Source: Lepidostoma basale (Eukaryota; Arthropoda; Insecta; Trichoptera; Lepidostomatidae). From it: 64,000 bases of DNA. Under the pieces are notes generated by a model. It ran no database searches. It worked only from the letters and a program-made list of their open reading frames with translations, and had not been told where the DNA came from. The position numbers were made by a program, and so were the translations under genes. The stretch covers positions 1,054,001 through 1,118,000 of the forward strand of contig JAHDVF020001034.1 in the NCBI GenBank assembly GCA_022606425.2, read 5' to 3'. This document shows, one piece after another, positions 1,476 to 61,899 of this stretch (position 1 is its first letter; each line of letters opens with the position of its first letter).

Positions 1476-3029
1476 TAAAAAAAATATCTTGCCAATCGAG
1501 ATCATTCACATACACAACAGACAATATTTAAAAGTAATAATGAAATATAACGGTGTTTTTAAGAACTTAAATAAACACCATTGTTTTTTAAAAGTAGAAT
1601 TCTCTTGCATTCATTCTAGTATGAAAGATATTTTCAATATTATGATCTGATTAAGTACCAGGAAAGTATGTAACATCATCTAAATCTGAATAACGTAGGA
1701 GACTAGGAAATAAAAGATGCGCTGGATGGATATGGGGGTAGCTAATCCGTCCCGGGTAAAGCGGAATGGAAAGATGTGGATATAAAACTTTTGAAGGCAG
1801 TCCAGGCCTTTTCGAGATGCTCTGCTTATGATGAATGGCGTGAGCTATTTTTAAGAATAAAAATATGGTATAAAGTGGTATAGAGTCTAGCGTTTTGTGA
1901 GGAATCACATCCATTTATGAAACAATCGGGTTAAAAAATACAAGATTTATTTTAAATTCAACCGGCCGCTTATTGATTGTATCTTTCGTCAGGACGATCA
2001 CAAGTATATATGAAAGACACAAGTATGATGTAAGGCAAACAAAAGTGTCTTTTATTATACTTATGAACGGAGCACTTCGATGGTATACATCAAGAACGAA
2101 CGACCATGGGTAGATGCAGTGTGAATGGGATTACTGAAAGAGGAAAATACTGGAATTTAAAACCAAATTAATAAAGTTTACGATGCACGTCACGATTTAA
2201 AAAAGGAGAAGCTCGAGAGATATGTCATAATAGAACAGTGTGCAGTCCATTATTTCTGCCTACCACACTGGCGAAATCGTGTGTAGGTTGGTTATTAGCC
2301 CCGACAAAGATCCGGATAAAATCGAAACCGGTCAACTGCAATAAATATGAGGTGGTTGAATTTACTTATTTGAAATCGTTATAAAATGTATAACGGCCGA
2401 ACAACTATAAAATTAAACCACAACAATTCACCAGAGCGACGTGTAATTTCGTATATAATATTTACAAATGTCGTGAAATGGATACAAATAAATGTCAACG
2501 ATGCGATAAATGTCGCCGATTTCGCGTTACGAGCACTCCTCGTTTCTTCCGCGTATGGCATCACAATAAGTCATAAATTCGATTCATTTAGCGGAAGTAA
2601 TCGCGGGTGGCAACAAATAATAACAAATCTCCCGCAGATCCTTTACTCGATACGGGGCCGCGGAGTCGCGGTAGCGTTTGCGTGCCACCGAATTCATTAC
2701 TAGGATGAGTTTAAACTATTCACGGTTGCTAACATACAACAGTTGCAGTATTGAATTATTCCAACGTCACATCAAATAGAATAATTAATACAGCCGATTG
2801 TTTAAGCCTAGTACGGAAGCATTCCAGTGGTATTAATGCAACTGAGCATCCAATTATTAATAACATTAAATACTCTCGGATGAAGCACTAAATTTATGGT
2901 GTCGCATTATTTGTTTATTAGAGCCAATCGAGCTCTGATAGGTTAACAAAACAAACTGTTTGTTTTGTTACCCTGGACGAAATTCTGGTGGGAGCGATAC
3001 CGATGCATTTAAAAAAAACTATATAGGTA
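1476..3029. other. Non-coding; GC-rich stretch 2500-2705; small palindrome 2945-2969
   Basis: There is no recognised gene. A 105-codon plus-strand frame at 2386-2703 runs through a GC-richer stretch and is mirrored by a minus-strand frame, so I treat it as chance. At 2945-2969 a short perfect palindrome built on AACAAAACAAAC is present. Around 1660-1910 is a unique 87-codon minus frame without family resemblance. Confidence 0.35.
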
Positions 3030-3195
3030 TTTTTTTAAATCACATTCTATATATTTGTTCATTATCATTGATGTAAAAAGTCATACGTCCGTTTACTATT
3101 AATTTAAAATTATAGTATTGTTGGAAATGTGTGTTTTATTATATTTTATGCGACTGACATGTTTCACCGTGCGAGTACATTATCAAAACTCAATT
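3030..3195 (-). repeat. Ribozyme-like element family H5, decayed copy
   Basis: The minus strand reads TTGATAA, a poor stem, GAAAC, ATGTC. It is followed by the family-specific AT-rich flank (attatattttatg on plus), which recurs near 45200, 49070 and 58540. Stem II no longer pairs well. Confidence 0.5.
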
Positions 3196-3350
3196 TGTTT
3201 TATCTTAAAATATAAACTGTCCCCTTACTAAATCAATAGCCTTAAAGCAATAAAACACCCTCAACTCAAAACTTCCATCTAAAAAATCCTTTTAAAATGT
3301 ACCCATTGATATGTCTATTGTTATGTCCCTGGTACTCGCCAAGTTAACTA

Positions 3351-4904
3351 TACTAGAGCCGCTCAGAAGTGAGTCTTGGGGCCATAAATCATTTCCCTAT
3401 GTCTATCTCGCTTGCACTTACGGGCCTTATGGAACGGTTTAGGGATGGGCGTAACAATAAAATAAATATATCGATAAGTAACGTTTATTATCGTATCTTG
3501 TTCATAAACTTTAACGAGTTAACAAAGTTTTGATATTAAACTTTATTTATGGGTTTTACGTGCGTTTAAATTAGTATGAAATTAGTGACTACCAGATACT
3601 AAATTAAATACCAGTAAAAACAGAAAAATTGTTTAATTTTAAAATTTGTATACCGTATGTCTATAAACCCAGAAAGAAAGTTAAGTATAAAAAACAAAGT
3701 AGATCATATTGTGGCCCTTAAAAGAGCCGTTTATATTACAAAAAAATGTATCAATCCTCATCGGAGTCTTCTTCATCAGTGATCGACGATTATAACTGAG
3801 GGCTCTTCAAGTATATTTAGGAATGCGGAAAACCATGCCATATATGTATCGCCATCCATTTCTGTGTGATAATCAGCATCCTTCGATTTTACCGCTTTAA
3901 ATATTAGCTTCGCTTCTGGAACAAAGCCAGTCCTTGCGGAACCAGCATGGCAAACTATCAATCTTTGACCTTTTCCTACAGGCTGATTCTTGAAACCTCC
4001 TTCATCGTTGCTTCCAAGCCACATACGCTTTCTTGAATGGTTTTGATTAATCCATGTTTCATCCAGATAGAAACGCGGCCGCTGATCGTTAGTTCTTCTA
4101 AGTAAATCCAATTTCCTTAAAAAGTCCATTCTGGCACAAACAATATCTGTTCTTTCCATTAAATATTTACGTCCTTCGGCATTTTTCTTATACTTGAACC
4201 CAATCTCCTTCATGAGTGTTCTCATCGAAGTTTTTCCGCATTTAAAATCAGGTAATTGCTCTCGGTATTTTTCTAATATTTTCGCCACGGACGGATACTC
4301 TCCACCATCATAAAATGAACCTACAGTCCGCTTCAATACACTTTTATCAAAATCGTCAATATTGGTGACAGTTTCTTGTTTCTTAAAATTTGCTCTCGGT
4401 GTACAGGGGCTGCTTGATTGCAATAATTCAGTCTTTATTCGGTCCACTGTCACTCTACTCACACCACAAATAAACGCGGCCATTTCACGTGGTTTGTTGA
4501 AATTAAGAGAAGCCATTTTATTCGGATCACTTTTCAATTCATTGACAAACAAGAATACGTTGTGAATCACTGTTCGAGTTTGAGGGCTAATATCGCCATG
4601 TAATTTCTTCAAATCAATGTTGGAAAATAAAGTATCCATAGTGCGTAACGAGTGGTGACACACGAATGAATTCATTTAATTGCAGTAAACACATTTATAA
4701 CAAAAAAGCACTGCATTCGGTAAAAACCAATCATTAGTGACTCATCGTACATATCATAACGTACATATCATTACAAAATCATTATAGTGACTCATCGACA
4801 CCACGAGAGCAGGTAGCCGTATACCGATAACAGTCCTGGGGCTTCCCATCCCTATTTCTATTGACATTTATGGCCCCACGACTCCGTTTTAAACGGCTGT
4901 AGTA
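3351..4904 (-). mobile_element. Tc1/mariner-type DNA transposon, internally deleted
   Basis: The imperfect terminal inverted repeats start with TACTAGAGCCG (left) and, reversed, TACTACAGCCG (right). Both continue to a shared block GGGGCCATAAAT. A TA dinucleotide flanks each side (3349-3350 and 4905-4906), the target duplication of this superfamily. The only gene is the minus-strand transposase remnant at 3776-4675. Total length is 1554 bp. The terminal repeats have diverged, so this is not a recent arrival. Confidence 0.9.
3776..4675 (-). pseudogene. Tc1/mariner (DDE_3-type) transposase, C-terminally broken
   Basis: This is a 299-codon frame. In this superfamily the protein cuts the element out and joins it to a TA site using a DDD/DDE triad. 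An N-terminal helix-turn-helix-like part (about residues 75-100, with FICGVSRVTVDRI) is followed by a DDE domain. The first acid lies in RFYLDETWIN (about residue 205), then GKGQRLIVCHAG, and the second acid in VIIVDH at the very end. The frame then stops. One base out of frame, the next codons read DEEDSDED and stop, an acidic tail. The simplest reading is an internal deletion that removed the third catalytic residue and shifted the frame. The start is the Met at 4675; a second Met twelve codons later (MDTLFSN) is equally possible. It cannot be catalytically complete. Confidence 0.88.
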
Positions 4905-4969
4905 TAGCACATTTAATATATGTTTCTAGGTTCTTCCACTCAATTTGAAATAATTTTGGTTAGTTTATA

Positions 4970-5095
4970 TCACTCTCCCGATGATGAAGGTGTAGGGCTT
5001 CGAAACATGCCGAGAAAAATAAACTCCGAAGTGGAAAATACAGTGTTTTAATTCATAAAAAAATCGTCATTACCAAAACTGTTGATAATGGCTTA
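4970..5095 (+). repeat. Ribozyme-like element family H1 copy
   Basis: Core CCGATGA (4978-4984), one spacer base, stem GAAGG...CTTC, GAAAC (5002-5006), then ATGCC where ATGTC is expected. The family tail GAGAAAAATAAACTC follows, then aattcataaaaaaatcgtc. The cleavage triplet is mutated, so it is not expected to be active. Confidence 0.6.
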
Positions 5096-6739
5096 ACAAA
5101 GGAAAATCATGTAAGAAGCGACTCCTATAAGATATAATAACATTTGTGAAAAGGGTATGTTATATTATCAGAAGCAATAACAACTTTTAACCCAATTTTT
5201 ATCAACACTGTCAGTTTTCGCACGTAACCTAAGAAACGCGCAATCACAAAGAAAATGTAAAAAATGTAATTGCTAAAAATATCGATTGAGTCGTATACAA
5301 ACGACATCCCCTGAGGTCCGACTACTGGCTAAAGCCTCTGACTTGTTATCTGGGTGAATGGAAAACACAAAGAAAACTTTTTTTACGTCTAATTGGGGAG
5401 CACGTTAAAAATCTATGCGCAGTGAGAGACGGTCGTTTTCCACGGCTTGTTAAGTAGTTATATCAAATTTCAGACACGCCGAACCATTACGAAAGCAAAA
5501 TTTTCGTTTAAAAAAAAAAACGATTAATAACTTTCAGATAAAACTATGCGTACAAAAAACGTGAAATAATAATTAATTACAAGATTATGAAGATAAATTA
5601 TATTTCTACCGTATAAAGTCCATATAAATTGTTTAGCGGTTCATAAAATTTTATATTCAAAGTTATCCTTTTGCTCCTGATGGAAACATTTTATGACATA
5701 TTTATTTTAGTACATAAATAAAACAAGAAAAAAGGCAAACCATAGGGTTTACTACGCATACTTGAGACCATAAAAGATCAATATTAGATATTATTGATGG
5801 GTATATAAACATTATATTATTGAGACGTTTCGTGTCGAGTCGAAAAACACATAAAACTTTCTATATAAAAAGGATACGGGAATTTTAATATGTGCCTATA
5901 AAAAGCTACAATAAATTAATGTAATTAAATTATCAACTGAAAGAGCGTTTTATGGTGCTCAGTTCCACTCGTATTATTTGAGTAATATAAACGACAAAAT
6001 AGGAGAAGTTGTGAAATAAACTAAAATCAGCGATCCCCGGAGTACGAAGCCCAGATATGAAAGACACTCCGAAAGTTAGGAATGATTCAGTGGTCACCGG
6101 GAGCGAGCAACAAATGATAGCAGAAGAAAGGCAGAAAAATGGACGCGATACATCTCGCCGTCGGAGGAGAAATGGCCCAAGTTTCCAGGCACAATGGCGA
6201 TACATTTTTGTTAGAGGAAAGTTTATCGTTTACCCAAATACATTATACCTCCCGGGCGGACTGCGGGTATACGAGGAGCACTGCCGTACTGTAGAGCGAG
6301 CTGCACACTAAAAAGTATTAGATTAATCTCTAACTCGAGATTAAACAATATTGTAGGAATATGTAACAAGAAAGTAAAACCTGATTATTGAAAAAAGTCT
6401 GATCGAATGTTAGAAAAAGACAAACGTAAAGGTGAACGGATGACATTATCCAACTTGCGGGTGGCAACAGATAGCCGAATATAGAAAATGATAGAAGTGG
6501 TGGAGAAAAACTGTCTGAAAAGAAGCAGAAGATATGAAAATAATATCATCCAATAAATTATATCAGAGGCATTTTATTAAAGAAATATATGTCATAAACA
6601 GATCCAAACGAAATTTAGCAACATTTGTGTTATACTCGTAGATAATTTTAGGACTTATGTCAATATTTAATTTTTTTTTGATAAACTTGAATTGTTCTAT
6701 GGAAATCCACAATGATGATGTCTTTATGAAACACAGGTT
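5096..6739. other. Non-coding intronic sequence
   Basis: AT-rich, with a slightly GC-richer patch at 6030-6310 carrying overlapping short frames on both strands. No domain, splice pattern or repeat membership was recognised. Confidence 0.35.
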
Positions 6740-6905
6740 TTATCACTATACATTTATTTTGCTAGACATGTTTCAAAAGATTTATGCCTCCATCATCGGG
6801 TGAACAATACATAAATGCTAGTTTTTATCGTTCTTCCGATGATGAAGGTAAAAAACATTCGTACGACGAAAAAAATAAACTCAAAAGTTGAAAAAAGTGT
6901 TTTTG
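6740..6905. repeat. Inverted pair of H1 ribozyme-like elements
   Basis: The minus arm (6765-6799) reads CCGATGA, T, GGAGG...TTTT, GAAAC, ATGTC. The plus arm (6836-6867) reads CCGATGATGAAGG and then loses the GAAAC box. The arms face each other, and each ends outward with an H1 tail (aataaactcaaaagt-like). Confidence 0.65.
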
Positions 6906-7504
6906 TTAACATACGAGTACAAACTTTTTCCAACAACCAAAACTTCATTTGACATTTTAAGATAAAACAGCATATATAACTCATTTTTGTTGTTTACAAG
7001 ACATAACAATTGTTAAATATTTTTAGCGAAACGCCACAGATATTCTAGTACAACGATAATAATATAAATACAATACAATTTTTGTAAAATATCTTGTGAG
7101 CACAAAGGAAAAATATTTATTTTATAACTTGTTAACAGTATAGCAAATCGCATTTCAAACGTTAAATATGAGTTTTATAGATAAAAAGAAATACTCTAAA
7201 AAATGGTCCCAAAATGATTCCAGATTGAATAATAAAATGGATTGAATTATTCGAGAGAAACGCAAAGGAAGATCAAAAACATATTATTCAGCCATCCGAG
7301 CTAAGGACCGGAGGGAAGTACCTACCGAGAATATTTCAATTTATTATTCCCGGCTTTCTCCCTTTCATTGCCATTTAAATCCACTCACCCATTATTTGAA
7401 TGACACGTTAACCCCTCTTTCGAACAATTTGGCGGGCACAATATTCGCGACTCTTCGGCGAGAAAAATAATTATTACAAAATATTAGCTGCGACAGGTTT
7501 TAAT
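6906..7504. other. Non-coding intronic sequence
   Basis: AT-rich, nothing recognised. Confidence 0.35.
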
Positions 7505-11174: not shown

Positions 11175-11364
11175 ATAAATATAACTTCACATCGTATTTG
11201 TACAACACTTTTCAGACATGTTTCGGTTGTGTCCGGACTTTGTCGATGCACAAATTTCAACATTTTAAAATCAAAATTTGTATTATACTTCGACAAAGGT
11301 TGGGTCACAACCGAACCATGTCTGTGAAAAGTGTTGTAAAAATACGAAGTGTAGTTATATTTAT
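11175..11364. repeat. Inverted pair of H6 ribozyme-like elements
   Basis: The left arm (minus, 11215-11246) has GAAAC-ATGTC. The right arm (plus, 11289-11322) reads TTCGACAA, AGGTTGGGTCACAACC, GAACC, ATGTC. Both end in the tail gtgaaaagtgttgtaaaaat. The pair abuts the 3' end of the Helitron by two bases. The core boxes are degraded. Confidence 0.55.
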
Positions 11365-12691: not shown

Positions 12692-12825
12692 CTGGAACAA
12701 GCGCAAACAACAAAAACATCAGTTACCATTACACATTTACAACATTCGGAATTTGAATACAAATAAACTGGTAATCCACTCTGTTTCAAGATAAACAATA
12801 TTAAATGTTTAAATTTGTAACACAG

Positions 12826-12972
12826 TTATTATGTATCACAATGTATTTATGAGTTTCGCAAATCTATGTTGGCATCATCAGGTGTTAAAACCTGATGATG
12901 CCAACATAGGTTGGCGAAACCGCTGTCGAGGTAAACTCATATAAATAAATTGTGATACATAATAGCAGTTTT
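12826..12972. ncRNA. Inverted pair of H2 hammerhead-ribozyme-like elements
   Basis: The plus copy (12892-12927) has a perfect CTGATGA core and one spacer T. A 6-bp stem GCCAAC/GTTGGC with loop ATAG follows, then GAAAC, loop CGCT and GTC. This fits a type I hammerhead with a two-pair stem III; cleavage would follow 12927. Stem I is weak: one G-C pair, then a 3x3 loop, then UAA/UUA. The minus copy (12849-12881) keeps CTGATGA and GAAAC but its stem II is mutated. The outer flanks (gtatcacaatgtatttat and its complement) pair, so the whole element is a hairpin. Confidence 0.55.
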
Positions 12973-13149
12973 TCAAATTAAAAAAAATTCAAATAAACTG
13001 GTGACGTTTTTTAAAGATTTTTCAAAAAGAGTACAAAAGAATGACACTACTTAAAAAAAGTATAAATAATAAATATTTTAACTTATTGAACGCTAAGGCA
13101 TTAACGCTGTAGAATTCCATAGTATTATACTTTGTAAATTGAAAAACTT

Positions 13150-13335
13150 TGTTTAATCCACTATTTAATAAAAAAATATTTAAAAAACACGATATGTTTC
13201 GGAGAATACCTTCACCTCCATCTTCAGGTGTAAAAATATAATCAAATATAAAATATTATATTTTTACACCTGAAGATGGAGGTATCCTCCGAAACATATC
13301 GTGTTTTTTAATATTTTTTATTAAATAGTGGATAA
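13150..13335. ncRNA. Inverted pair of H3 hammerhead-ribozyme-like elements
   Basis: The plus copy (13270-13300) has CTGAAGA, one spacer T, a 5-bp stem GGAGG/CCTCC with loop TAT, GAAAC, and ATATC. Stem I is the best in the window: ACAC before the core pairs with GTGT after the triplet, and beyond a T-rich internal loop ATATT pairs with AATAT. Position 7 of the core is not conserved in hammerheads, so CUGAAGA is acceptable. The minus copy (13191-13227) keeps the same core, GAAAC, ATATC and ACAC/GTGT. The arms meet over an AT spacer, making a nearly perfect palindrome of about 180 bp. Confidence 0.6.
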
Positions 13336-13739
13336 AATATAATTTTCCAATTTCCAAAGTATAGTAAATATTTTATGTAGCTTTTTGAAAAACAATATAT
13401 AAAACAGTATTGTATAAAATAAATGAAGCCTCAAATCAAATAAGTCGCATGGCATCAAATTCAGCTCAAACGTTTGAATATAAACAGTAAAACCAAGCAA
13501 TGACTACACGTGAAATTAAAGATGGAATCTTTTTCCAGCTAGGTTTTAACTTAATAATTTAACGTTCATACTTCAGACCCAAAACTTTTGTCTGCTGCGA
13601 AAAATTTTCTTTTAAAAAATCGAATCAAAGATTTTTTCTTCATAATTTATTCGGACTGACACTGTTTTTTACTTTCCGAATGCTGCATAAATTATAAAAG
13701 CCGTACTGAATATTTATTTTTGGATCTCTAGTGTGAATA
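13336..13739. other. Non-coding intronic sequence
   Basis: AT-rich, nothing recognised. Confidence 0.3.
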
Positions 13740-14230: not shown

Positions 14231-14555
14231 TAACTAACTAACTAACCATCGCGCCGTTTCTCCGGAGGGGTAGGCAGAGAGGATGGATCGCCACATTATT
14301 CTATCCTGGCATAATTCTCGGGCCTTTCCTACATTCACACATCGTGTCATGCACACTCGTTGATTGTTCCAACTTCATACATGGAAGCCTTTCAGTAATT
14401 GATTAATTTGGTCATACCATGTCTTTGGTCATATCTTTCTTAATTTTATTCATCACGCATTCATCCGCCTTATATTCCTTTCTTACATCATCATTAAATA
14501 TTTTATCATACATTGTTTTGAACATGTTAATCAACTTCTTAATTAAATTGTAAAT
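14231..14555 (-). mobile_element. LINE-A 3' fragment
   Basis: The plus strand begins taactaactaactaacc (the tail), then the reversed SAYPSGE end and about 300 bp of ORF end (TWYDQI-like region at 14410-14440). Truncated where the H7 pair begins. Confidence 0.85.
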
Positions 14556-14730
14556 TAAACACTTGTTTTTCACCACTTGAGTATTATATTTTACACGACT
14601 AGTTTCGGAAGCTACAGATGCTTTTTTTGCAGACAGTTTATATTGAAACCTGTAGATGGAAGCTTCTGTAGCTTCCGAAACTAGTCGTGTAAAATATAAT
14701 ATTCAAGTGGTGAAAAACAATAGTTTTCTT
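14556..14730. ncRNA. Inverted pair of H7 hammerhead-ribozyme-like elements
   Basis: The plus copy (14650-14686) has CTGTAGA, a spacer T, a 7-bp stem GGAAGCT/AGCTTCC, GAAAC, and GTC. The stretch ACTAGT (14680-14685) is self-complementary like the ACATGT of other families. Stem I can form about ten pairs with internal loops (upstream TTTATATT with downstream AATATAA). One core base differs (A6 to U), which would be expected to impair cleavage. The minus copy keeps the GAAAC/ACTAGT/GTC part only. Confidence 0.5.
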
Positions 14731-15125
14731 TACAATTTAATCATGTCCTACCACAAAGTGAAAGCCAAAACAATAAATAACAAACACTTAATTTTTGCAT
14801 GGATAAAAAAAGGAGCTAAAATGATAGTTTTAGATTCATATAATATATAATTCAATCGAAATGATTACGCACGTAATATAACTTAAATTATAATGCATTA
14901 TTTGCGTAATGAAACTAAACCGCATTATCAATTTTTTTCCAAGTGCCTATTTTACTTCAACCATTAAAATACGTAACAGTTAAAAGGCATACCGTAAAAT
15001 CAAATTAATGATAAACGAATAATAGAAAACTTTATCGTAGAATAAAAATAACACTATAAGGCGATTCAAATTCAAATATAAAAATGTTCCATATTACAAA
15101 ATGCATTTATTTGAAGAAAAAAAAA
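14731..15125. other. Non-coding intronic sequence
   Basis: AT-rich; a 64-codon frame at 14656-14850 overlaps the H7 element and is treated as chance. Confidence 0.3.
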
Positions 15126-19994: not shown

Positions 19995-20125
19995 GTCTGT
20001 CGATGCCAGCGAGCCTGGCGAAACCGGTCGCTGTCTAAGAGACACAAGTGGAAGTAGTTAAAAAACATCGGTTTATTTAATTATTATTTAAAATAAACTT
20101 CCATCAAGAGATTTCAGTAAAATCA
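19995..20125 (+). repeat. H2-variant ribozyme-like element
   Basis: CTGTCGA (19997-20003), T, stem GCCAG/CTGGC, GAAAC (20020-20024), loop, GTC (20033-20035). It shares its downstream part (gagatttcagtaaaatc) with the copy at 44464-44693. The core base A6 is changed. Confidence 0.5.
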
Positions 20126-23151: not shown

Positions 23152-23540
23152 AAATATGTATCTTTATAATATGTATCACTGAAGAAGGACTGATTGTCCG
23201 AAACATGTCTATGTAATTTTAATTTTTTAAACGTAAGTGTTGTATATACAAAGTGTATAAAAAAGAAAAAGAGAAATTATTAATTTAAATGATATATTCA
23301 AAAAACTATTTTTTCGACATATTCCATAATTTTGGAAATAGACATATAAAGATACATATAATATGTATCACTGAAGAAGGACTGATTGTCCGAAACATGT
23401 CTATGTAATTTTAAATTTTTTAACGTAAGTGTTGTATATACAAAGTGTATAAAAAAGAAAAAGAGAAATTATTATAATAATTTTAATGATATATTCAAAA
23501 AACTATTTTATCGACATATTCCATAATTTTGGAAATAGAC
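23152..23540 (+). ncRNA. Tandem dimer of a 192-bp unit with one hammerhead-like motif per unit (retrozyme-like, family H4)
   Basis: Two direct copies, nearly identical in sequence, spaced exactly 192 bases motif to motif. Each has CTGAAGA (23179-23185; 23371-23377) and one spacer A. A 4-bp stem GGAC/GTCC with loop TGATT follows, then GAAAC, ATGTC. ACATGT is self-complementary and would give a six-pair stem III between two molecules or two units. Predicted cleavage follows 23209 and 23401, releasing a 192-nt RNA. Stem I is weak (one bulge, two G-U pairs). Both units then share taagtgttgtatatacaaag and aaagaaaaagagaaattatt. Copy 2 ends at 23540. Tandem repeats of a few hundred bases with a type I hammerhead per unit are the known form of metazoan retrozymes. 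Confidence 0.6.
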
Positions 23541-25720: not shown

Positions 25721-26095
25721 AAATGTCTGATTAAGGGTTTGTAGCGTTAATGCATTAATTTACTGTTTCATACTGCTTTCTATTAGTTTTATTATTAAAG
25801 GGTGTGACATGTTACTCGTGTCGCTTTCGTAAAATATAATAAACTTTTAACTTCTAGAATGGACGGTTCCATCAATATTAAATACTCAAGTTTATCAAAA
25901 TATATATTGTATTTTAATGACTACATAAAACATTTAAAACTTCTTTATTGCACTGCCACACATAGACAATAAAAATATCTATAATTTAGAATTTTTATTT
26001 AGTATAGTCATTTTTTGTTAGCTTTGATACCAAATTTATCAAAAATCTTTATTTTTTAACATAAAGCGTTAACACTGGATTTCCCAAAAATTATT
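25721..26095. other. AT-rich non-coding sequence
   Basis: Nothing recognised. Confidence 0.3.
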
Positions 26096-26097
26096 TT

Positions 26098-26225
26098 TTA
26101 TGAATTAAAACTGTTTTTTCCCACTTCTGAGTTAATTTTTCTCGACATGATTCGAAGGATTAACAACTTCATAATCTTCCAAATATATCGACAAAAATAA
26201 AGTCAAATGTGGAAAACAAAGAAAT
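26098..26225 (-). repeat. H1 ribozyme-like element, decayed inverted pair
   Basis: The minus strand keeps CCTTCGAATCATGTCGAG and the AAAAATTAACTC tail. A plus-strand tail (cgacaaaaataaagtc) follows at 26189. Confidence 0.5.
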
Positions 26226-26784
26226 CTATTTCATAAAACGTCAATCATTTCTTGATTAAAAGTTAATATAGATTCAAGTTTATCACGAAAATACTTTAAT
26301 GAAAACTCAGTTAAATTTACCGGATACAAGTAATCATAGGATACAGAATTCCTAAAGAATAGAAAATGGATAATGATGAATGACACGGCGGAGTGAGGGG
26401 TCCACGAGTCAGAGCACAGCGGATGGAGTCGGTCTGCGATGAACGGAAGTATACTAGAGTCCCGCAAAAGTGTCCAAAACAACGAAGGAACTCTAGGAGC
26501 TTTTCATGCAATATTCATGATTGCGAGTGAAACTTGCGGATTCTCCGGAGTCGTTTTAATAAGCTCCGAAAGCGACACGCCTCGGGTCCAAACAACGGCC
26601 ACCAGGACTCCGTACGTATGAGGAAAATCGGCGATCATTTCAGAGGGAAAGATAACTTTCAGGGTAACAAATGCGAAGACGCAAAAATCAAATGACATAA
26701 ATATGAATTTTAGGTGTGAACCTGAGTGATTTGAAAGATCTATCTCCAAAGTGATTTATGTGTTCAAACAAATTAATTGTTTTT
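26226..26784. other. Non-coding, mildly GC-rich 26380-26620
   Basis: Short frames on both strands; no family recognised. Confidence 0.3.
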
Positions 26785-27150
26785 ATTTTTATTTTCAAAA
26801 CAAATCAAATCAGTTTATTAACTCAAAAGACATTACAAACCGCAAAATGTTTAAGGCATCTATTGAGTTCAGGTAAAATATTATAAAAATACAACATAAT
26901 ACCAGGAACGCATTAGAGATTGGTCGACATTAGGAAGACAAGATACTTTCTAAAGTCAAGAGTATTTGTCCCCTGAACGTACCTTCACTAATATGAAAGA
27001 CGTCGATCTCCGAGGAGACCGCGTTCAGCAGACTAATTGCTCTTCCCACCGGTGTCACCAGGGGCAGATTGGTTCTGGTGGCCGGTAGGTAACACAATCT
27101 GTGCTGTCGCTGTCGAAGAAATCTATCAGGATAAATTAAAAGACTGTTTT
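26785..27150 (-). pseudogene. LINE-D (jockey-like) 3' end with UTR
   Basis: Minus frame reads RFLRQRQHRLCYLPATRTNL, PLVTPVGRAISLLNAVSSEI, the end of a jockey-like RT ORF. The 3' UTR follows to about 26785. The same ending is at 29225-29410 and 59760-60545; the UTR part recurs at 52025-52150. Confidence 0.85.
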
Positions 27151-27300
27151 AGGCTTTACACCTCTATCATCGGGAGAACAATGTAAGTTGATTGTAAGAC
27201 CTGACGATGCTAACATCGGTTAGCGAAACATCTATCGCGACTAAATATAATCAGTTGTGATATTCCTAACAAAGTTTTTTTATTTAAGCAGTTAAAAATT
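27150..27300 (+). ncRNA. H2 hammerhead-like element with an H1 remnant
   Basis: CTGACGA (27201-27207), spacer T, 6-bp stem GCTAAC/GTTAGC with loop ATCG, GAAAC (27225-27229), ATC triplet ending 27236. The stem differs from the 12892 copy (GCCAAC/GTTGGC) by a compensated pair, which supports selection on pairing in the ancestor. A reversed H1 core (ctatcatcggg) lies just left. Confidence 0.5.
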
Positions 27301-28445
27301 TTGAAATATCAAAGTGTTTCCGCCAAATAAATGGATTATCAGAACAGTGTTAACTAACTAAAATAATTTCAAACCAAATACAAAAACCTTGGAACATATG
27401 TAATATGTGTTAGTTAACTTAGGCAGAGTACTAGGTACATAACATTATATTGAGATCAAAAATGGAAAAAAACTGTTTTAATTCATAAAAAATTCGTCAT
27501 TATGGAATTCCACGATGTTAACGCCTTAAGTTTATCTAAAATTAGATAAATTGTTGACAAACAAGACAATATTTCGTTCTAAAACAAAAAAATAACATTC
27601 CCTTGCAGTGACGCTAATGAAAATAAATAGATTAACGCCCAAAACGGGTATCACCATATTATACAGTTTTGTTTTCGGGGATGTAAATTTTACGAAGAAA
27701 TCTCGCTCAGAATGGCTTATATTAATCATTTCATTTTGTTACGTCAGTTTCCCGACGTCAGCGGAATACTAACGGGTTTGTTTTCTACCGCGGCTTGTAA
27801 AACGGAAGGATACAATAAATTCGCCGGCACCGAGTGATGCGATACAGCGGGACCAAAAACTTCACCGGAGAACAATGCCCGGCGAGATATTAATATAATA
27901 AATTAATGAAAGCTCACAAACCGGCCGCGGAGAACAATGCGACGCGGAGGGGATAGCCGTATTCTCTGGGATAAGAGTCATCTCAATTATTTGTAGAATT
28001 CCGGATAGGTACTAATAGAAAATAATTTATTATGACAAAGGATTTATAAGGGCGACGCGTGTCCATCTCGATATTAACAGGATAAGAGTTAATCTCGAGA
28101 AATTGCCGCGGGGCAGAAAATTATTTGCAGCAGCGAACACCAGCTTTTGGAATATCAATTTCTATCCCAGGAAAGCTCAAAGTTTCGTTAATATCGTTTT
28201 GATAAACCAGCAACTGGATGAATCTTAAATTCTCGGGTATTATTGAAATTCGTACACTCTCCTAAGTTAAAAATAGTATTAATTCGTAGAAAATTAAGAA
28301 AAAAAAAATCGCTACCTCGCTGTTCTTCTGCTCGTTATTTACAACGAACTTCTTTCTACCTTGAGATTTAAAATTTAAAAAATAATGTATTAATTCGGAA
28401 TAAAAATATTACAATGTGAAAAAGAATTTTCTATACATATTTAGT
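27301..28445. other. Non-coding; H1 tail 27455-27530; GC-rich 27760-28140
   Basis: The H1 tail reads ttcataaaaaattcgtcatt. The GC-rich part holds no frame with splice-like borders. Confidence 0.35.
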
Positions 28446-28600: not shown

Positions 28601-28699
28601 TAGTTCATGTCGCATATAGCGTAACGCATCCATTGATCTATAATTAATATATTTTTATAACCTTATTTTGTTTTTTTACACAGGATAAATTTACTGTGA

Positions 28700-28810
28700 T
28701 TTTAATTTAGTGATAGTTATACTTGAAGATGGAGTATATCTCTCAAACATTTTGTGTTCATTTATTGACAATAAAAAAGTGGTTTATACAAAGTGTTAAA
28801 TTTTCGTTCG
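28700..28810 (+). repeat. H3 ribozyme-like element, decayed
   Basis: Reads TTGAAGATGGAGTATATCTC, TCAAACATTTTGTGTTCATT. This is the H3 order with several core mutations. Confidence 0.5.
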
Positions 28811-29224
28811 AATTTAACAATGGAATTCCAGAGATACCCTTTAATTTTTAACAAAAAATAGTATTGTTCACTTGAAGATAATAATTAAAACTGTGATGAT
28901 ATTTTATAGAGGATAAAATTTATATAAAAAAACATAAGTAATGTACGAGTGTAGTAAACTGAATGTTTGCATTAAATGAAATGTCGATGAAAATTTTATA
29001 TAAAAGGCACGAGAAAATTATAAGTCCAGTGAAACAAAATGTCTTTAAATGAAAAACAAAACTTGAATGTTACACAAATATCACAAATATTACAGATGCT
29101 TGAATCTAAGTCGTCTGCAACATTACAATTACATTATAAGAATTATTTTTTAAAAAAGGACATAAGGACTACGCATCAGAGATAACAATCACAACATTGA
29201 TATTGCATCCCTGTCTTATTACTC
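28811..29224. other. AT-rich non-coding sequence
   Basis: Nothing recognised. Confidence 0.3.
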
Positions 29225-39519: not shown

Positions 39520-39625
39520 ACAACACATATCACATTCATTACCCTGATAATGGAGACTGCAACGATCTCCGAAACGTCGGTCGAGAAGGAGTTATCACAC
39601 GGTGTTACCCAAAAACACATCAAAC
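39520..39625 (+). repeat. H8 ribozyme-like element
   Basis: CTGATAA (39544-39550), spacer T, stem GGAGA/TCTCC, GAAAC (39571-39575), GTC (39576-39578). Stem III is reduced to the self-complementary ACGT. Core G8 is A. Confidence 0.45.
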
Positions 39626-39659: not shown

Positions 39660-41060
39660 AAAAGAAATAAGTTCGCATATGAATATTATTGGTAATAGTA
39701 ATATAAAACAACATGGGTCTCTTGATCACACTAACAGCAACATGAGAATTTATTTATAGAAAACACAAAATAGAAATAATTGTATTGCGAAATGATATAA
39801 AAAAAAGTACGCTTTGTGGACTTAAAAGAACTTTGAGAATAAAACACAGCATTAAAGATTCAAGTTCCAAGAGGCGCCGTAAACACGAGGATTGAGCTAC
39901 TGAATAAAAAGGGATGACATTTAGCACCCGCGCATACATCATAAACTCGGGCAGAATACGGACGCCACGGAAGGGACCGCGGGAACAAAGGAAACAGTAG
40001 AGTACTCGCGTGAAAATTAACATAGAAATTCACATAAAAATACTTGTACAATTTTCAGCTTATTTTATTTGGACTCTTGTTATTTCCCACAAAAACACCC
40101 ACTCCGCGAGATTTCGCGAGAGTCGGAGCTTATAAATAAAAACGGCGAAGAGTAATAGGGCCTCGCGAACAAAAGGATGGCTAAAGCGCCGGAGGTACAC
40201 GGTAAAATGTGTAAGGAAGTGCGCGATCTCTCCATTCTGCGGTGGTCGGGCTATACGTGCTTTCGTGGATTCCACACAAATAGCCATTCTCTTGTACAAA
40301 TCCTTTTATATAACGCTATTTTTTCATTATAAAATAAGTATTGCGTGTCGAACAAGTCATCCCAAACAAACAAACAAACAAAATGGCTTTACAAGTAAGG
40401 ACAGAAGCAAATGAATGTTTACTTCTACATATTATTTTACTGCTCTTTTTACTGCTCTTATCACACCCGTCACAGGTGGTGTAAAACACAAAATAATGGC
40501 ATATAATTTCAAACACCAACAACGATATAAATTTAAGTAGTAATTAAGTGTAAAGATGTATAAGAGGGTGTTGTTAAACAAACTTTTAGTACCGTTGAAG
40601 ACTCCTTAATTTACAATACGATAACTTGATACAGATCGGTGTATTCCCGCCGCCGGCTCCGGAGCAGAAATGATAAAGTCCCGCTGGAAACGGGAGAAGC
40701 AGGGGGGGGGGGACGTGACCTGAACAGGTGATGAATAATAATGGCAACTGGAGCATCCCACGTGAGCGGGCGGGAGAGGAGGGACCAGGACACAATAATA
40801 GCCGCAGTAGGCAGGCACGTCCAGAGAAGGAATCATTACACCTTGTATTTGAATAGTATCTATGAGCTAAGCGGGAACTTTGACGAGCGTAATATTTAAT
40901 ATTCAACCCAACATTTCACGATTTTTTTTTAAATTTTAACAAAAGCAATATTTTTAGTACAATATTAATTGCAAAATAAAATACAGATTTTTTTTAAAAA
41001 TTCATATACCGATTTCAATAAAAATATGTAGCAAATTTACTAGAAGGCTAAATTTGACGA
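39660..41060. other. Non-coding with three GC-rich patches
   Basis: Patches at 39880-40030, 40080-40310 and 40620-40850 carry overlapping short minus frames in more than one reading frame, and a G10 run (40701-40710). No gene recognised. Confidence 0.3.
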
Positions 41061-41064
41061 TATT

Positions 41065-41290
41065 TTATGAATTAAAACACTGCTTTTTTCCACATTCGAG
41101 TTTATTTTTCTCGACATAAACGGGAGAACGATATAAACGATAACAGTTTATATCCTTTCCCCGATGATGAAGGTGTAAAGCCTTCGAAACGTATCGAGAA
41201 AAATAAACTCAAAAGTGAAAAAAAAAAACTGTGTTATAATTCATAAAAAAATCGTCATTATGGAATTCCACTGTGATAACGCCTTAAGTT
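41065..41290. ncRNA. H1 ribozyme-like inverted pair
   Basis: Plus copy: CCGATGA (41160-41166), spacer T, 5-bp stem GAAGG/CCTTC with loop TGTAAAG, GAAAC (41185-41189), ATC ending 41194, then GAGAAAAATAAACTC. The minus arm keeps the tail and GAC but has lost stem II. Core U4 is C. Confidence 0.5.
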
Positions 41291-42465
41291 TTATTTTAAA
41301 AGCTAAATTTAATAATATTTCATAATTTTTCTTTCTTTCTTCTTCATTCATAATATATATTACTATTAATACACCCAATGAATGATTAAGCATGATATAA
41401 ATACTTACCTGGCAATGTAGTTTTTATATATTTATTTGGAAATTTCGTTTTTTTTAAACTCAAAATGTGTCTAAAATGGCAGTAATCGAAACAGGTCAAC
41501 CAGCGACCAAATGTCAAAGTAAAACTTTTTTTTTTGTAAACTAGAGCCACAAGGGATGGCTTGTGTGCCTTAATATATAGATGTGAATGTAGAGTGTAGC
41601 GTACAACAAAAATATGTATGAAATTCAAATAATCTATACAATATTTTAGCAGATTTTTCTATTTGTAGCAAATCTGCCACATCGTGAAATGAAGGGTTAA
41701 TACGACCGCCATTTCGAATTAAATCATACAAACAAGTAACTGCAGAGATACAAAAGAAGATATTTCCCCCAATAATCGCCACCACAAGGGATGAATAAAT
41801 ACACGCTTGAATAAAGGATTCCAAGAATTCAGAACGTTCAAATAAAGTGAAATAGGTATTTCCGCCGAAATAACGGGGAGAAAACCGAGAATTGTATTTA
41901 CAAAGGATAAAATAGTAGATTTAAAAATAAAATAAAAAGAATGCAGAATTGTATCAGTTACCTTTGAAACGGGAAATCATCCTCAATCAGAAAAATACTT
42001 CGGCAGATAAAATTTGTCTGGACCCTCCCGATCGAACATAAAGGATCCAATTTACAATTTCCTGTAGTCAAAATTGAAAGGTTTTTCCCAGAGCACCCGA
42101 CCCGACCTGCCTATTTTCGGTCGTGAAAATATGAGCAGACATTATTTGGGCAAACAAGTCTGAAGCCCGAAGTTGCTGTAACCAAATGTAATGAACATCA
42201 CGTAGCTGGTGAAGGGGTTTGTGAATTTATATTGGTTATGAATTTTTTCCGCAAACGAATGATGAGAAAAAAAAACTTACCTGTCGGGATATAAAATTTT
42301 ATTCCATCCTTGTGAGAACACGACCTTGCGTTCAATAAAATTTAAAGCCAAAATCGTTTCCGATAAAAAAAATATTCGGGTTTAAGAAAAATTTCCTAAA
42401 CGAAGCAAAGATTCAGGAATCTGTAATTCTGGTATGTAGCGGTGAACAATAACATACAGTATACC
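41291..42465. other. Non-coding intronic sequence
   Basis: AT-rich; the part 41850-42150 is somewhat GC-richer. Short frames only. Confidence 0.3.
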
Positions 42466-44376: not shown

Positions 44377-44780
44377 ACCTTTTTTTCTAGATGAAGCATT
44401 CGGACGCTGTCATTGAAATGGGGACACTCTGAAAGTGGAAAAGGGGTCAGAACGTATGAGGAAGTCTGTCGATGCCCACGAGCCTGGCGAAACCGGTCGC
44501 TGTCGAAATAAAGACAAAAGTTGATGTAGTTCCTTATCGAAATGAGATTTCAGAAAAATCCTCGGATTATCATGAAAATTATACACCGTTTAAAAAAATT
44601 AATTAAATAAAAATAGAGAAATTATTCGAAAACGCTCCGAAAGCTGGTACATGTTACCCGTTTCTTTAATATTCGTGTGTAATGATAAATATAACCTTTT
44701 TTTCAAGATGAAGCATTCGGACGCTGTCATTGAAATGGGGACACTCTGAAAGTGGAAAAGGGGTCAGAACGTATGAGGAA
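44377..44780. repeat. 87-bp direct repeats flanking a 230-bp H2-variant ribozyme-like element
   Basis: 44377-44463 and 44694-44780 are nearly identical (for example gaagcattcggacgctgtca, ggaaaaggggtcagaacgta). Between them, starting at 44464, is the H2 variant: CTGTCGA (44466-44472), stem GCCCA/CTGGC (one mismatch), GAAAC, GTC (44502-44504). It is either an insertion with an unusually long duplication or a 317-bp tandem duplication. Confidence 0.75.
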
Positions 44781-45110
44781 TGTTCCCGGCAAACGAGAGT
44801 AAAATGTCACGTGTGATTCGCTAGCCGCGTACTGCGACACGGGCCGGGGATGAGACTTTAAGAAAACAACGGCAAAAAAGTCCGCAAGGTGGAAAAATAG
44901 GTCACGTAAATCGAAAACTTTATACGGACGCTCAATTTATTCTAAAACCAATATAGTATTTCCTCTTAGTAAACCACGACGCCATTAGTAATACGTGATT
45001 AACCCTTCAATTTATGTTTTTATTTTTTATTGTAACAAAAACCAAAATTTTTAGTGATCTAATACAAAATATAATATAATATTTAAAAAAAACTATTTTT
45101 AAATTATATA
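44781..45110. other. Non-coding intronic sequence
   Basis: Nothing recognised. Confidence 0.3.
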
Positions 45111-45111
45111 T

Positions 45112-45370
45112 TTGTTATTTATTGTTTCTTGAACAATGATGTAATACTCCTTATTAAATAATTAATACGAATGATTACGTCAGTTTTCTAGTAGTTTTAT
45201 TATATTTTATGGGAATGACATGTTTCGCCCTTCTAAGGCATTATCAAATGTCTCCCTTCCAAGGTATTTGATAATGCCTTAGAAGGGCGAAACATATCAT
45301 TCCCATTAAATATAATAAAACTTCTAGAAAACTAACGTTTAACATTCATGTTAATTATATATTTGTTTAT
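45112..45370. ncRNA. Inverted pair of H5 ribozyme-like elements
   Basis: Minus copy 45217-45247: TTGATAA, T, 5-bp stem GCCTT/AGGGC (one G-U), GAAAC, ATGTC. Plus copy 45268-45298: same core and stem, GAAAC, ATATC. C3 and G8 of the usual core are replaced by U and A, keeping a pair. The flanks tctagtagttttattatatt and aatataataaaacttctaga are inverted, so the locus folds back. Confidence 0.55.
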
Positions 45371-47916: not shown

Positions 47917-48520
47917 CTTACTAACGACCACGTCGCGTCCCCGAAGGGGTAAGCAGAGAAAATAGACCCCAAAACTTTCTTTTTCTGACATACATTCTCA
48001 ACATTTAGCCTCACCTGGCCGACATTTAAAATTTGAATGATATGATTGTGTCACGTTTTCCACGGTCTTGTTCCGTTTACATCGTTAACATATCCTTTCT
48101 TTATCATGACGATTTTTTTTAAGAATTACTGTTCCACTTTTGAGTTTATTTTTCTCGACATGTTTCGAAATCTTTACACCTTCATCATCAGTAACGATAT
48201 AAAAATGTTTATGGATTCGTCATTATGGAATTCCATAGTGCTTTTCCAATAGTTTTCCCAAAATTTATTTATCATTATTTCTTCATTTATTCTTTCCAAA
48301 TTCGTTCGTGTCCAAACCATATTACTGACCCTTCCCTTTTTTTGTTCATACACTTTCATTCACACTGCATTCACTTCTTATATTTCTCATTTGACACTAT
48401 CATCGCAGATTTACCACATATTCATCGAAGAGGATTCATTTCTATTGCATTTATTCTACTTTCATCCCTTTTTGCCAGTTCCATGCTTCACTTATTTTTT
48501 TCGTACTCATTTTATATTAA
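47917..48520 (-). mobile_element. LINE-A copy interrupted by an H1 element
   Basis: The reversed ORF end begins near 47920 (cgtcgcgtccccgaaggggt) and runs to 48107. It resumes at 48276 and continues to the MRS/SSW region near 48480. The interruption is the H1 element at 48108-48267. Confidence 0.82.
48108..48267 (-). ncRNA. H1 hammerhead-like element inserted in LINE-A
   Basis: Minus strand motif 48191-48157: a perfect CTGATGA core, spacer T, stem GAAGG with TTTC (one G-U), GAAAC, ATGTC. ACATGT is self-complementary. The flanks are TTTATCAT on both sides (48100-48107, 48268-48275), an apparent 8-bp target duplication. The element is about 160 bp. Stem I is weak. Confidence 0.6.
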
Positions 48521-48931: not shown

Positions 48932-49200
48932 ACATGTATTGTTATTTGCACAATGATGTAAAAGTCCATATTAAATTATGAATACAAGTGAAAACGTCTG
49001 TTTTCTGTCAGCACCTGTAAAACCACATCGCGAAAGCATCTGTCAGTTTGTTTTCAAAAAGTTTTATTATATTTCATAGGAATGATGTTTCGCTAAAGCA
49101 TTATCAAATGTCTTTGATATTGATTGATCAAATGTCATTTGATGATATCATAGCAAGGCGAAATAAGTCATTTTCATAAAATATTATAAAACTTCATGAA
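48932..49200. repeat. Inverted pair of H5 elements, decayed
   Basis: Minus arm near 49083-49110 (GAAAC, TTGATAA); plus arm TTTGATGATATCATAGCAAGG, CGAAATAAGTC (49138-49169). Flanks as at 45112-45370. Confidence 0.5.
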
Positions 49201-49374
49201 AACAAACTGAGAGATCCTTTCGAGGTGTGAAGAAAGGCTGGACATATCCTGGACAGCGAGAAGAACGAACTAGTCGATACTTGACCAGCTGGGAAGGTGT
49301 GCTCTAAGAGAGTGTTAATATATTTTTGTCCCCGGAGAGATCGGGAAAACATTAAAAAAAAACTAATAATGGGC

Positions 49375-52380: not shown

Positions 52381-52529
52381 AACTATAATTATGCAACAAG
52401 GTGCGATATTATTGACGTAACTTTCCGTAAGAATGATAATAGCATCAAGAATATAACTTAATATTATAATATTTCTTCTATATTTGCTATCACTTTGTGT
52501 TGTGGATTCCAACTGAAATATTCTTTTGA

Positions 52530-52620
52530 AAATATTGTATTTCCACAACACTTTTTTGGACTTTTAACAAACATGTTTCGGGCCATAGGCGCCATTTCTC
52601 AGTGCAGAAATTTTAACAAT
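52530..52620 (-). repeat. H6 ribozyme-like element, left arm
   Basis: Minus 52602-52569: CTGAGAA, AT, GGCGCC..., GAAAC, ATGTT. Partner arm at 53050-53135. Confidence 0.5.
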
Positions 52621-52683
52621 ATCGATCCAATCGTTACTTACATACTAAATGAAGAAGGGGGGGGGGGGGAGTAAGGTCTAGAG

Positions 52684-52949
52684 CCTAGGTTCTCAAAGTG
52701 GGCGATAACGCCCCCTTGTGCGCGTTTGAGACTAGCAGATAAAAAAATATAGTCTAAAAATACAAAAAAAACACGCTAATCACGTAGGTTACTAATAAAG
52801 AAAATTAAACTTAAATATTGGTTTATTTTGTTATTTTATGTATTTTAATCATTTTCCCATATATCGAATAACTTTTATGGGAGGGGGGCGTTGAACGTTA
52901 ATTTTTCTTGTAAAGGGGGCGGTGGCTCAGAGAAGATTGGAAACCTGTG
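52684..52949. mobile_element. hAT-type MITE (second family)
   Basis: Perfect 8-bp duplication GTCTAGAG on both sides (52676-52683, 52950-52957). Ends CCTAGGTTCTCAAAG and, reversed, CACAGGTTTCCAATC. Related to 24364-24671, inverted relative to it. A poly-G run lies just left (52657-52669). Confidence 0.9.
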
Positions 52950-53049
52950 GTCTAGAGGTAGGGGTAATTGTTATTTAATAAGAACTTGACTCCACCCCTC
53001 TTAATTTAGTATAAGTAACGATTTAGTCTCATTATATTATTAAAATTTC

Positions 53050-53135
53050 TAAACTGAAGAAAGGCGCATGTGGCCCGAAACATGTTTGTGAAAAGTGCTA
53101 AAAAGTGTTATGAACATACAATATTTTCAAAAAAA
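53050..53135 (+). ncRNA. H6 ribozyme-like element, right arm
   Basis: CTGAAGA (53054-53060), short GG/CC-based stem, GAAAC (53077-53081), ATGTT. ACATGT is self-complementary; GTT is an allowed but weak cleavage triplet. Tail tgtgaaaagtgctaaaaagt. Confidence 0.45.
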
Positions 53136-57104: not shown

Positions 57105-57222
57105 GTATTTTTTAGTTGATTTTAAGACCTGACGATGCTAACATCGGTTACCAAAACAGCTTTCGCGACAAAATATAATCAATTGTGATATTTATAACAA
57201 AGTTTTTATTTATTTGAACAGT
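57105..57222 (+). repeat. H2 ribozyme-like element, decayed
   Basis: CTGACGA (57129-57135), T, GCTAAC/GGTTAC, then CAAAAC instead of GAAAC. The tail (tcaattgtgatatttataac) matches 27240-27290. Confidence 0.5.
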
Positions 57223-57224
57223 TA

Positions 57225-57396
57225 AACATCGGTCTCCACCAACGATTTAAAACAGTTGTTAACCAAACTTCGTTTGACGTAGCTTGTGGATAAACGCGAA
57301 TCCACAGCCGCGAGTGTTTATCCACAAGCTACGTCAAACGAATTTTGGTTTACAACTGTTTTCAACTGTTTTAAACCGTTGGTGGAGACCGATGTT
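57225..57396. mobile_element. Palindromic MITE with TA target site
   Basis: Left arm AACATCGGTCTCCACCAACG; right arm its inverse, ending GGTGGAGACCGATGTT. The arms cover nearly the whole 172 bp around a ~20-base centre. TA flanks both sides (57223-57224, 57397-57398), as for Tc1/mariner-type MITEs. Confidence 0.82.
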
Positions 57397-57704
57397 TATC
57401 ACAGTGTGGCACGCCTTTTAATAAAAAATATTGTTCAACATAGAATTCTATTTATTTATTGAACCACGGCGTGTAGCTCCCATTTAAGCATTAAATATTT
57501 AAGTAAACTTCAGTTTTTTAGACGTTTTATTATATTTTGAACACATGAAATTGGAAATTGTCCTGAGAAATTCAAAACATGTTATTCCCCTGTAATATTA
57601 TATAATGAAACTTCTTGAAAATTCACGTTATCATAAATCATAAATATACTATCAAATATGCTTAAATACGTTCCTATAAAAATCATCACACCGTACGTCC
57701 GAAA
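57397..57704. other. Non-coding intronic sequence
   Basis: An H5-like flank (gacgttttattatattttga) at 57518-57545; nothing else. Confidence 0.3.
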
Positions 57705-58449: not shown

Positions 58450-58680
58450 ACATAATAGTTTTGATAGTTTCTTGAAGAATGATGTTAATCTCTATATGAA
58501 ATAATTCATTCGAACGAAAACATCTATTTTTTAGGAGCTTTAGTTAATTTTATGGGAATGACATATTTTGCCTTTCTATGGCATTATCAAATGGCTTAGC
58601 AAGTATACAGATGTCATTCCCATAAAATAAAATAAAACTTCTAGAAAAGAAACGCCTTTATTTGTATTAATTATCAAGTT
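58450..58680. repeat. Inverted pair of H5 elements, decayed
   Basis: gggaatgacatattttgcct on the left and atgtcattcccataaaataa on the right, with H5 flanks. The stems are lost. Confidence 0.5.
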
Positions 58681-60960: not shown

Positions 60961-61020
60961 ATGTATACAAATACTTGTAGACAAATCTGGATTTTACCTA
61001 TTGCGGGTTAATCATTTTTA

Positions 61021-61466: not shown

Positions 61467-61899
61467 CAAGAACAATTCATTGTCTATTTTGTGGCAATCG
61501 ATGCGAGACTGGTAACTTCGGTGCTATTTGAAAATATTATAGAATAATCTATGCACATGTGTGCAGTGTTAGTACCAATCGAGTTCAATTTTGCATATAT
61601 TTTTTAATCTACAGAATGTGAAACCGTTTGAAAGGGGTCTCGCCCCCTAACCGCCTTCTCTGACTCCCCTATTTGTACTGAAATTTGAACTCTGGGTAAG
61701 CTAATTTAAAGGCGAGTGTTTTCTTTTTCCACCGAGTGAGTGCAATGCCTCACCGAAGTGTAAACACGCCGCTCGCTGTTTTATTTTGAAATTTAAGCTT
61801 TTTGTTTAAAAAGGACTAGCACGAAGAATGACTCAGATTTCGGATAAAACTAAATGACTGTTTGAATATCGAACCCCATCGATGTAAACTTATGGTACA
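61467..61899. other. Non-coding intronic sequence
   Basis: Nothing recognised. Confidence 0.3.

Follow-up and report, generated by a model that had tools for sequence, protein, structure and literature searches.

Head-to-head short elements with a minimal hammerhead-like motif in Lepidostoma basale and their probable origin as Penelope-like insertion ends

Two short palindromic elements at positions 12849-13300 of a 64,000-nucleotide stretch of the Lepidostoma basale genome (the window, meaning the whole of the DNA that was analysed) contain a motif that resembles a hammerhead ribozyme. The same order of parts, namely a CUGANGA-like core, one base, a stem II hairpin, GAAAC, a very short stem III, and GUC or AUC, is common to about ten groups of short elements, in keeping with a first-pass annotation that had counted at least eight families. 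The locus raises the question of what these elements are, how they came to share this motif, and whether the motif takes part in their spread.

The motif and its distribution in the window

Read from the palindrome centre outward, an arm consists of a short leader, CTGANGA, one base, a hairpin, GAAAC, 2-4 nt, GTC or ATC, and AT-rich sequence. The motif at 12892(+) is CTGATGA-T-GCCAAC.ATAG.GTTGGC-GAAAC-CGCTGTC, and the motif at 13270(+), which has a second copy on the opposite strand at 13227(-), is CTGAAGA-T-GGAGG.TAT.CCTCC-GAAAC-ATATC. A hairpin-plus-GAAAC scan and a motif scorer located the order at these three places and at 14650, 19997, 23179, 23371, 27201, and 39544, and further at 41161, 48191(-), 6799(-), 4978, 45268, and 45247(-), among which are all four loci named at first pass (12892, 13270, 23179, and 48191). 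Most motifs have GUC or AUC, and one extra base separates A9 from stem II; the textbook hammerhead has no base at this place.

The earlier claim of a hammerhead-like order at many loci is borne out by the scorer, which gave 15 window matches at 22 or above, 9 of them at 32 or above, the top score among 40 dinucleotide shuffles being 30. A check with covariance models, as the annotation had proposed, went both ways. The Rfam hammerhead models matched nothing in the window at the gathering score, and still nothing, there or in four short stretches, when the limit was set at E≤10. A model trained on four sequences (from groups B, E, and H) matched 23 window sites at E≤0.25, some of them in G, J, A, I, F, and C; the 12892 copy (E=0.88) and group D (E=1.3) missed this cut-off.

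Single matches can arise by chance in AT-rich DNA, as suggested by the 20 loci found in prokaryote and viral collections, nearly all of them stemless. Loose-pattern scans gave 0, 0, 1, 0, and 0 loci in viral contigs and 19 in prokaryote genome contigs, all but L007 being without a matching stem II or other support. For the set as a whole chance is refuted and its probability is negligible, as no shuffle matched the top nine window scores, flanks are homologous, and a 26-mer of group B has 2678 exact matches in the genome (1362 and 1316 on the two strands; 768.8 Mb in 1572 contigs) against 0 for the reversed pattern. The L007 locus lies in a contig filed as a Zoogloeaceae MAG, in which G+C shifts from 56-63% to 36-41% (1800-6691); the AT-rich part, with one hammerhead-like motif and a CCCC/GGGG stem I, is likely eukaryotic sequence in the bin or a chimera.

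The elements of the window differ in core, layout, and preservation. Element A1, at 12760..13002 including a flanking 13-nt duplication CAAATAAACTGGT (12760-12772, 12990-13002), has its palindrome at 12808-12983, a 34-nt extra stretch on the left only, and the group A motif with the intact core CTGATGA at 12892..12927 (+). The B element, at 13070..13375 with an 11-nt duplication TAAATATTTTA (13070-13080, 13365-13375), is a unit that recurs genome-wide; its untailed arm has the motif at 13270..13300 (+) with the intact core CTGAAGA, and its tailed arm has the motif at 13191..13227 (-) and a tail at 13081..13122 (-) that starts ATGGAATTCTACAGCGTTAATGCC. The C element (14538..14793) has a palindrome at 14542-14741, a 7-nt flank CTTAATT, a motif at 14650-14686 (+) with core CTGTAGA, and a tail at 14742-14786 (+). 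Group D motifs, with core CTGTCGA, are found at 19997..20029 (+) and 44466..44498 (+), and group E forms a direct tandem of two 192-nt units at 23165..23540 (+), with motifs at 23179 and 23371 and both cores intact. Group F has a motif at 39544..39582 (+) with core CTGATAA, and a group J end at 28698..28837 (+) has core TTGAAGA and ATGGAATTCC.

Group G is represented by three pairs, G41 at 41047..41310 (9-nt flank GCTAAATTT, motif 41161(+), tail to the right), G6 at 6686..6951, and G26 at 26085..26254 (tail to the left), and by single ends at 48078..48215 (-), with motif 48191(-) and core CTGATGA, and at 4954..5092 (+). Of the H pairs, H45 (45102..45367) has a 15-nt flank match, motifs 45247(-) and 45268(+), core TTGATAA, and a tail to the left; H58 (58501..58674) also has its tail to the left, and H49 (49024..49229) and H57 (57482..57667) are decayed, the latter with no tail recognised. 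An I pair with the degenerate core TCGACAA and a tail to the right is located at 11175..11364, and a possible mixed pair at 27090..27314 sets a G-like end (27090-27189, -) against an A end (27176-27314, +, motif 27201). An I/K pair at 52479..53135, with its tail to the left, has about 450 nt of other sequence between its motifs at 52566-52602(-) and 53054-53090(+); within this sequence, a block at 52670-52970 flanked on both sides by GTCTAGAG looks by eye like a hAT-type insert with an 8-nt duplication.

Other features of the window were observed alongside these elements. A strong foldback at 57223-57398 (arms 91-93% complementary), without a hammerhead core, adjoins an A end, and an element of about 458 bp at 61015-61472 has inverted ends of about 140 nt each and contains GAAACAGTC, which as far as seen resembles the motif by chance only. 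Foldbacks at 13194-13297, 45212-45303, 57222-57397, and 11192-11347 look like microRNA precursors to Rfam and could feed small-RNA pathways if transcribed; the matches are below cut-off and caused by the foldback, and microRNA precursors were rejected as an identity. An open frame of 299 aa at 3776-4675(-) is transposase-like by eye and has no Pfam match at E≤0.01.

Links among the groups and to Penelope-like elements

Searches with nhmmer using 18 arms gave 44 window clusters at E≤0.1, with the one direct tandem of group E, no close tail-to-tail pair, and 12 pairs that lie close together head to head. One of the 12 may be mixed (G/A at 27.1-27.3 kb; weak, with E=1.2e-3 for the G-like half), and a wider pair at 52.5/53.1 kb is additional to them. 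Outside the arms, one side often has an extra 30-45 nt starting at or near ATG, and ATGGAATTC is common to this outer stretch, or tail, in B, G, and J, with CACAAAGTGA contained in the extra stretch of C, I, and the 52.5-kb element. The families do look unrelated, as noted at first pass, but weak nhmmer links connect some of them (J-B, E=9e-4; B-C, 4.5e-3; A-D, 1.7e-2), and B, G, and J share a tail sequence.

Coding evidence comes from the genome at large, as no open reading frame (ORF) of a Penelope-like element (PLE) was found within the window by simple motif search. The GIY-YIG family (PF01541) has at least 62 genome matches above cut-off, and frames at L101 (758 aa) and L103 (494 aa) contain both RVT_1 and GIY-YIG, with GIY-YIG alone noted at L105 (219 aa). 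The D motif of the window also ends these PLEs with reverse transcriptase (RT) and GIY-YIG, lying about 390 nt downstream of the PLE stop codon and followed by the tail ATGAACTTCCATCAAGAGATTTCAG 97 nt after the probe start, and the opposite side of D PLEs has an inverted, tail-less D end. Spacers of B elements match a PLE endonuclease end (48% over 40 aa, E=4e-10; 36% over 55 aa, E=2e-4), with no Pfam match to the two short fragments. The D ends thus belong to PLEs and some B elements contain the final part of a related endonuclease gene, and the earlier pointer to Penelope-like elements was right. Homology, layout, and tails suggest that the remaining groups are most likely PLE insertion ends as well.

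Independent ribozyme families are ruled out by the cross-group links together with the PLE bodies. The number of families in 64 kb, which had seemed remarkable, looks instead like related, diverged PLE ends in a PLE-rich genome, as the copy number of the B 26-mer illustrates. The palindromes might otherwise be terminal inverted repeats of MITE-like DNA transposons moved by a transposase, with the hammerhead-like stem incidental or a transposase site, and short palindromes, target duplications, and defined ends would suit such elements. This is extremely unlikely, since target matches vary in length and sequence, ends are asymmetric, and fillers differ between copies, and it is contradicted for B and D, the ends of which adjoin PLE coding sequence.

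One tail per pair and a two-sided origin

In the window, the extra stretch lies inside flanking matches and on one side only in A1 (13-nt match), B (11), H45 (15), G41 (9), and C (7). A scan for flank duplications of at least 7 nt in the expected geometry gave matches in 7 of 11 window elements (null 9.85%), and matches of at least 9 nt in 5 of 11 (null 1.65%). Tail homology contradicts the side that the flanks point to in I and H58, so only A1, B, C, G41, and H45 were used, which leaves 5 of 11 with a flank match and 4 of 11 at 9 nt or more. Tail homology was tested for both sides of 13 elements against up to nine tails and was found on one side only in 9 of the 13 at p≤0.01, with about 2 chance matches expected, the G6, C left, and mixed-pair matches being weak and the probes having been cut from sides picked by eye; C matched on both sides (weakly on the left), the mixed pair weakly on one, and A1 and H57 on none.

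Tails were also counted for group B across the genome. Eight B loci were collected by motif alone (L021-L028), 30 by similarity to the B element of the window (L029-L058), and 12 by matching a longer single arm (L059-L070), leaving out two duplicates (L056, equal to L031, and L059, equal to L023), and all were compared in one frame u, with the core at u=252 and L023 as the yardstick. Head-to-head pairs make up 46 of the 48 loci, L026 and L027 being without a partner, and exactly one tail was found in all 46 pairs and two tails in none. The one-tailed query used for L029-L058 may have under-sampled tail-less pairs, and the match of the second arm ends early in L045, L058, L062, and L066, where absence of a tail rests on no match; 6 of the 8 loci collected by motif alone are one-tailed head-to-head pairs. 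At L026, a D end is followed immediately by a B end that points the same way, which may represent a PLE inserted beside the tail of another. Among 100 places listed for the B 26-mer, five opposite-strand neighbours less than 1 kb apart, counted by eye, were all head to head.

The two arms of a B pair end at different, fairly fixed positions. Tailed arms reach u 390-412 in all 46 pairs (the yardstick L023 matching to its end), and untailed arms end by u 367 in all 46 and at u 347-357 in 36, the untailed arm of L025 being in two pieces with the outer one ending at u 354. Target matches of at least 9 nt were found in 19 of 46 pairs against 2.3% of mismatched flanks, with none found in the rest, and matches of at least 11 nt in 12 of 46 against 0.2%. 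Inner ends of the short class are mostly at u 227-238, that is, 14-25 nt upstream of the core, and the two ends are separated by fillers of 0-25 nt, many end pairs abutting with nothing between. Since the fillers mostly vary from copy to copy, the majority of palindromes would seem to have arisen independently and not from one founder.

Group D agrees with group B. A single tail is present in 12 of the 13 distinct D pairs, L082 is without any tail, and no pair has two; L101/L102 (4.9 kb in common, including flank), L076/L099, and L092/L096/L104 were each counted once, and L090 (several ends) and L083, L087, L093, L094, L097, and L100 (one recognised D motif) were left out. Target duplications of 13 nt at L103 and 9 nt at L105, with arms 99.8% and 99.5% identical, respectively, indicate that D was recently active.

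These observations are best explained if the motif is a minimal type I hammerhead-like structure in the pseudo-LTR (pLTR) of PLEs and the short elements are PLE insertions that retain two ends through two-sided priming, a reading that is probably correct. In the Poseidon PLE PAc of Anolis carolinensis, the PLE protein acts on both strands of the target, cutting and extending each, and the RNA has two internal start sites with the tail between them (PMC11167929). By analogy, the PLE enzyme would cut both target strands and prime a cDNA on either strand, the tailed cDNA beginning at the distal start site and the untailed one at the proximal site; one tailed and one untailed end are what two-start-site reactions on opposite strands would leave. 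Each cDNA would reach the 5′ end of the RNA, often 14-25 nt upstream of the core, or stop elsewhere, and the two would be joined with few filler bases. Two short cDNAs would give a palindrome of about 280 bp with one motif per strand, and one cDNA that runs into the coding region would give a larger element that has one end in inverted orientation. This step probably does not require the motif to cleave.

An alternative, proposed in PMC3846280, is self-priming, in which the end of an antisense PLE transcript folds back and serves as primer on the same molecule, and the resulting head-to-head hairpin is then integrated. Self-priming would account for the head-to-head palindromes, for the near-identical arms of L103 and L105, and for three long B pairs the inner ends of which nearly coincide (L061, 49/52; L063, 33/32; L070, 69/65). 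It would also account for arms being slightly more alike within a locus than between loci (0.893 vs 0.881; 3 of 2000 permutations), with 48 uncommon bases shared by arms of one locus against 28.5 expected. The shared changes and matching inner ends, which weigh against the two-sided model, are also compatible with one RNA used twice, and self-priming predicts neither a fixed stop about 45 nt short of the other end, nor the very unequal arm lengths that are frequent in B (L021, L060, L064, and L068), nor a mixed pair such as the weak one at 27.1-27.3 kb, and it is rather unlikely.

Stem pairing, the catalytic core, and known systems

Stem II pairing is kept despite differing sequence, as had been claimed at first pass. 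In the 23 covariance-model matches (22 distinct), 91.6% of cells pair, and covariation is 0.717 against 0.177 ± 0.040 when shuffled (0 of 500) and 0.043-0.253 in slid controls, in an alignment that was fitted to the covariance model and is biased in its favour. Across ten representatives, partly found by having the stem, 0 of 20000 partner permutations reached the observed pairing. The stem II covariation supports the conserved RNA fold that the annotation had proposed, with a minimal type I hammerhead layout. For stem I, the inner four pairs gave 24 of 40 paired against 17.6 expected (611 of 20000 permutations), and a free duplex search gave no signal (7377 of 20000).

Conservation of the core is less even. 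Cores are intact in groups A, B, and E, including 59 of 77 B arms that were not selected by motif, and are altered in G (mostly CCGATGA), H (mostly TTGATAA), and C, D, F, and I as given above; CTGTCGA is the D core of the recent pairs at L103 and L105 as well as of the two window copies. A hammerhead is impaired by changes at U4 and A6. Broken cores in several groups, including recently mobile D copies, suggest that classical self-cleavage is probably unneeded for mobility. In PAc, cleavage is lost when C3 and G8 are changed, and mutants of this kind retain the ability to insert (PMC11167929). Mobility here is thus very probably independent of a classical active core, and, with several groups lacking an intact core, an active ribozyme is only a candidate for the set as a whole.

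The stretches after GAA (ACAUGU, ACCGGU, and ACUAGU) are self-complementary, as expected of motifs acting as dimers, and a dimer mechanism of minimal hammerheads is described in the available text of PMC6155905. Head-to-head motifs lie on opposite strands of a transcript and would pair together, so only direct tandems such as E could be expected to dimerise within one RNA. Group E, with its intact cores, would suit elements of the retrozyme type that spread by way of circular RNAs cleaved by active hammerheads, metazoan retrozymes being direct tandem repeats of type I hammerheads according to the part of PMC7229834 available. Metazoan non-LTR retrozymes also resemble the present elements in having type I hammerheads in short non-coding repeats, and amphibian motifs are likened in weak stem III and palindromic loop (same source). 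Except for group E, the elements here are head-to-head pairs, 12 against one tandem in the window, and have broken cores in several groups, tails, and PLE bodies. The retrozyme reading fits at most the tandem at 23165-23540 and is very unlikely for the set.

Related systems are also found among PLEs. In the available text on endonuclease-containing Penelope of Adineta vaga (PMC3846280), an inverted pLTR stands beside the element with head-to-head palindromic junctions, a 31-bp tail is optionally present on one inverted pLTR, target duplications are 8-10 bp, and pLTR and tail cover the ORF start, all listed as likenesses. By this analogy the tail here, about 45 nt against a criterion of 30-40 bp for PLE tails, would be the start of the ORF, and no translation beyond the tail into a PLE ORF was found in the loci examined. 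Unlike the A. vaga elements, many elements here consist of two ends only, with no ORF between, and there are 59 pairs in which the presence of one tail can be tallied; a hammerhead is unmentioned in the available text of PMC3846280. PAc likewise is a PLE with a hammerhead-like motif near the ORF start; stem II marks the beginning of its ORF, and RT initiates 111-118 nt further in (PMC11167929). Here, in contrast, the ATG of the tail lies about 75-120 nt beyond the motif in groups where seen. Joined two-sided products are absent from the main text on PAc (PMC11167929).

Minimal hammerheads in PLEs are already known; the anatomy here is unusually clear and countable. Minimal type I hammerheads of PLEs were reportedly treated by Cervera and De la Pena in 2014 and by Lunse et al. 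in 2017. As far as the available texts of PMC6155905 and PMC7761336 go, such motifs have little or no stem III, are proposed to act as dimers, are found in PLE pLTRs, are carried by all available PLE sequences, and are dispersed by the thousands in animal genomes. Setting the 2014 and 2017 papers aside, the available portions of the open-access literature neither state an exactly-one-tail rule nor present head-to-head pairs of ends without an ORF as a major class.

The in vitro study of PAc leaves the later steps of PLE insertion to be validated (PMC11167929). A genome with very many small insertions that preserve the target duplication, both cDNA starts, and the join is a direct record of products, and the one-tail regularity is a sharp prediction for in vitro work. 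Insertion here may always be concerted and two-sided, with one subunit starting at the distal and the other at the proximal site, the one-tailed pair being the primary product and coding elements the cases with a long cDNA, a proposal with about even chances of being right. If it is true, the thousands of minimal hammerheads dispersed in animals would largely be debris of short two-sided insertions in which the ribozyme core is dispensable, which offers an origin for them and urges caution against reading each one as an active ribozyme.
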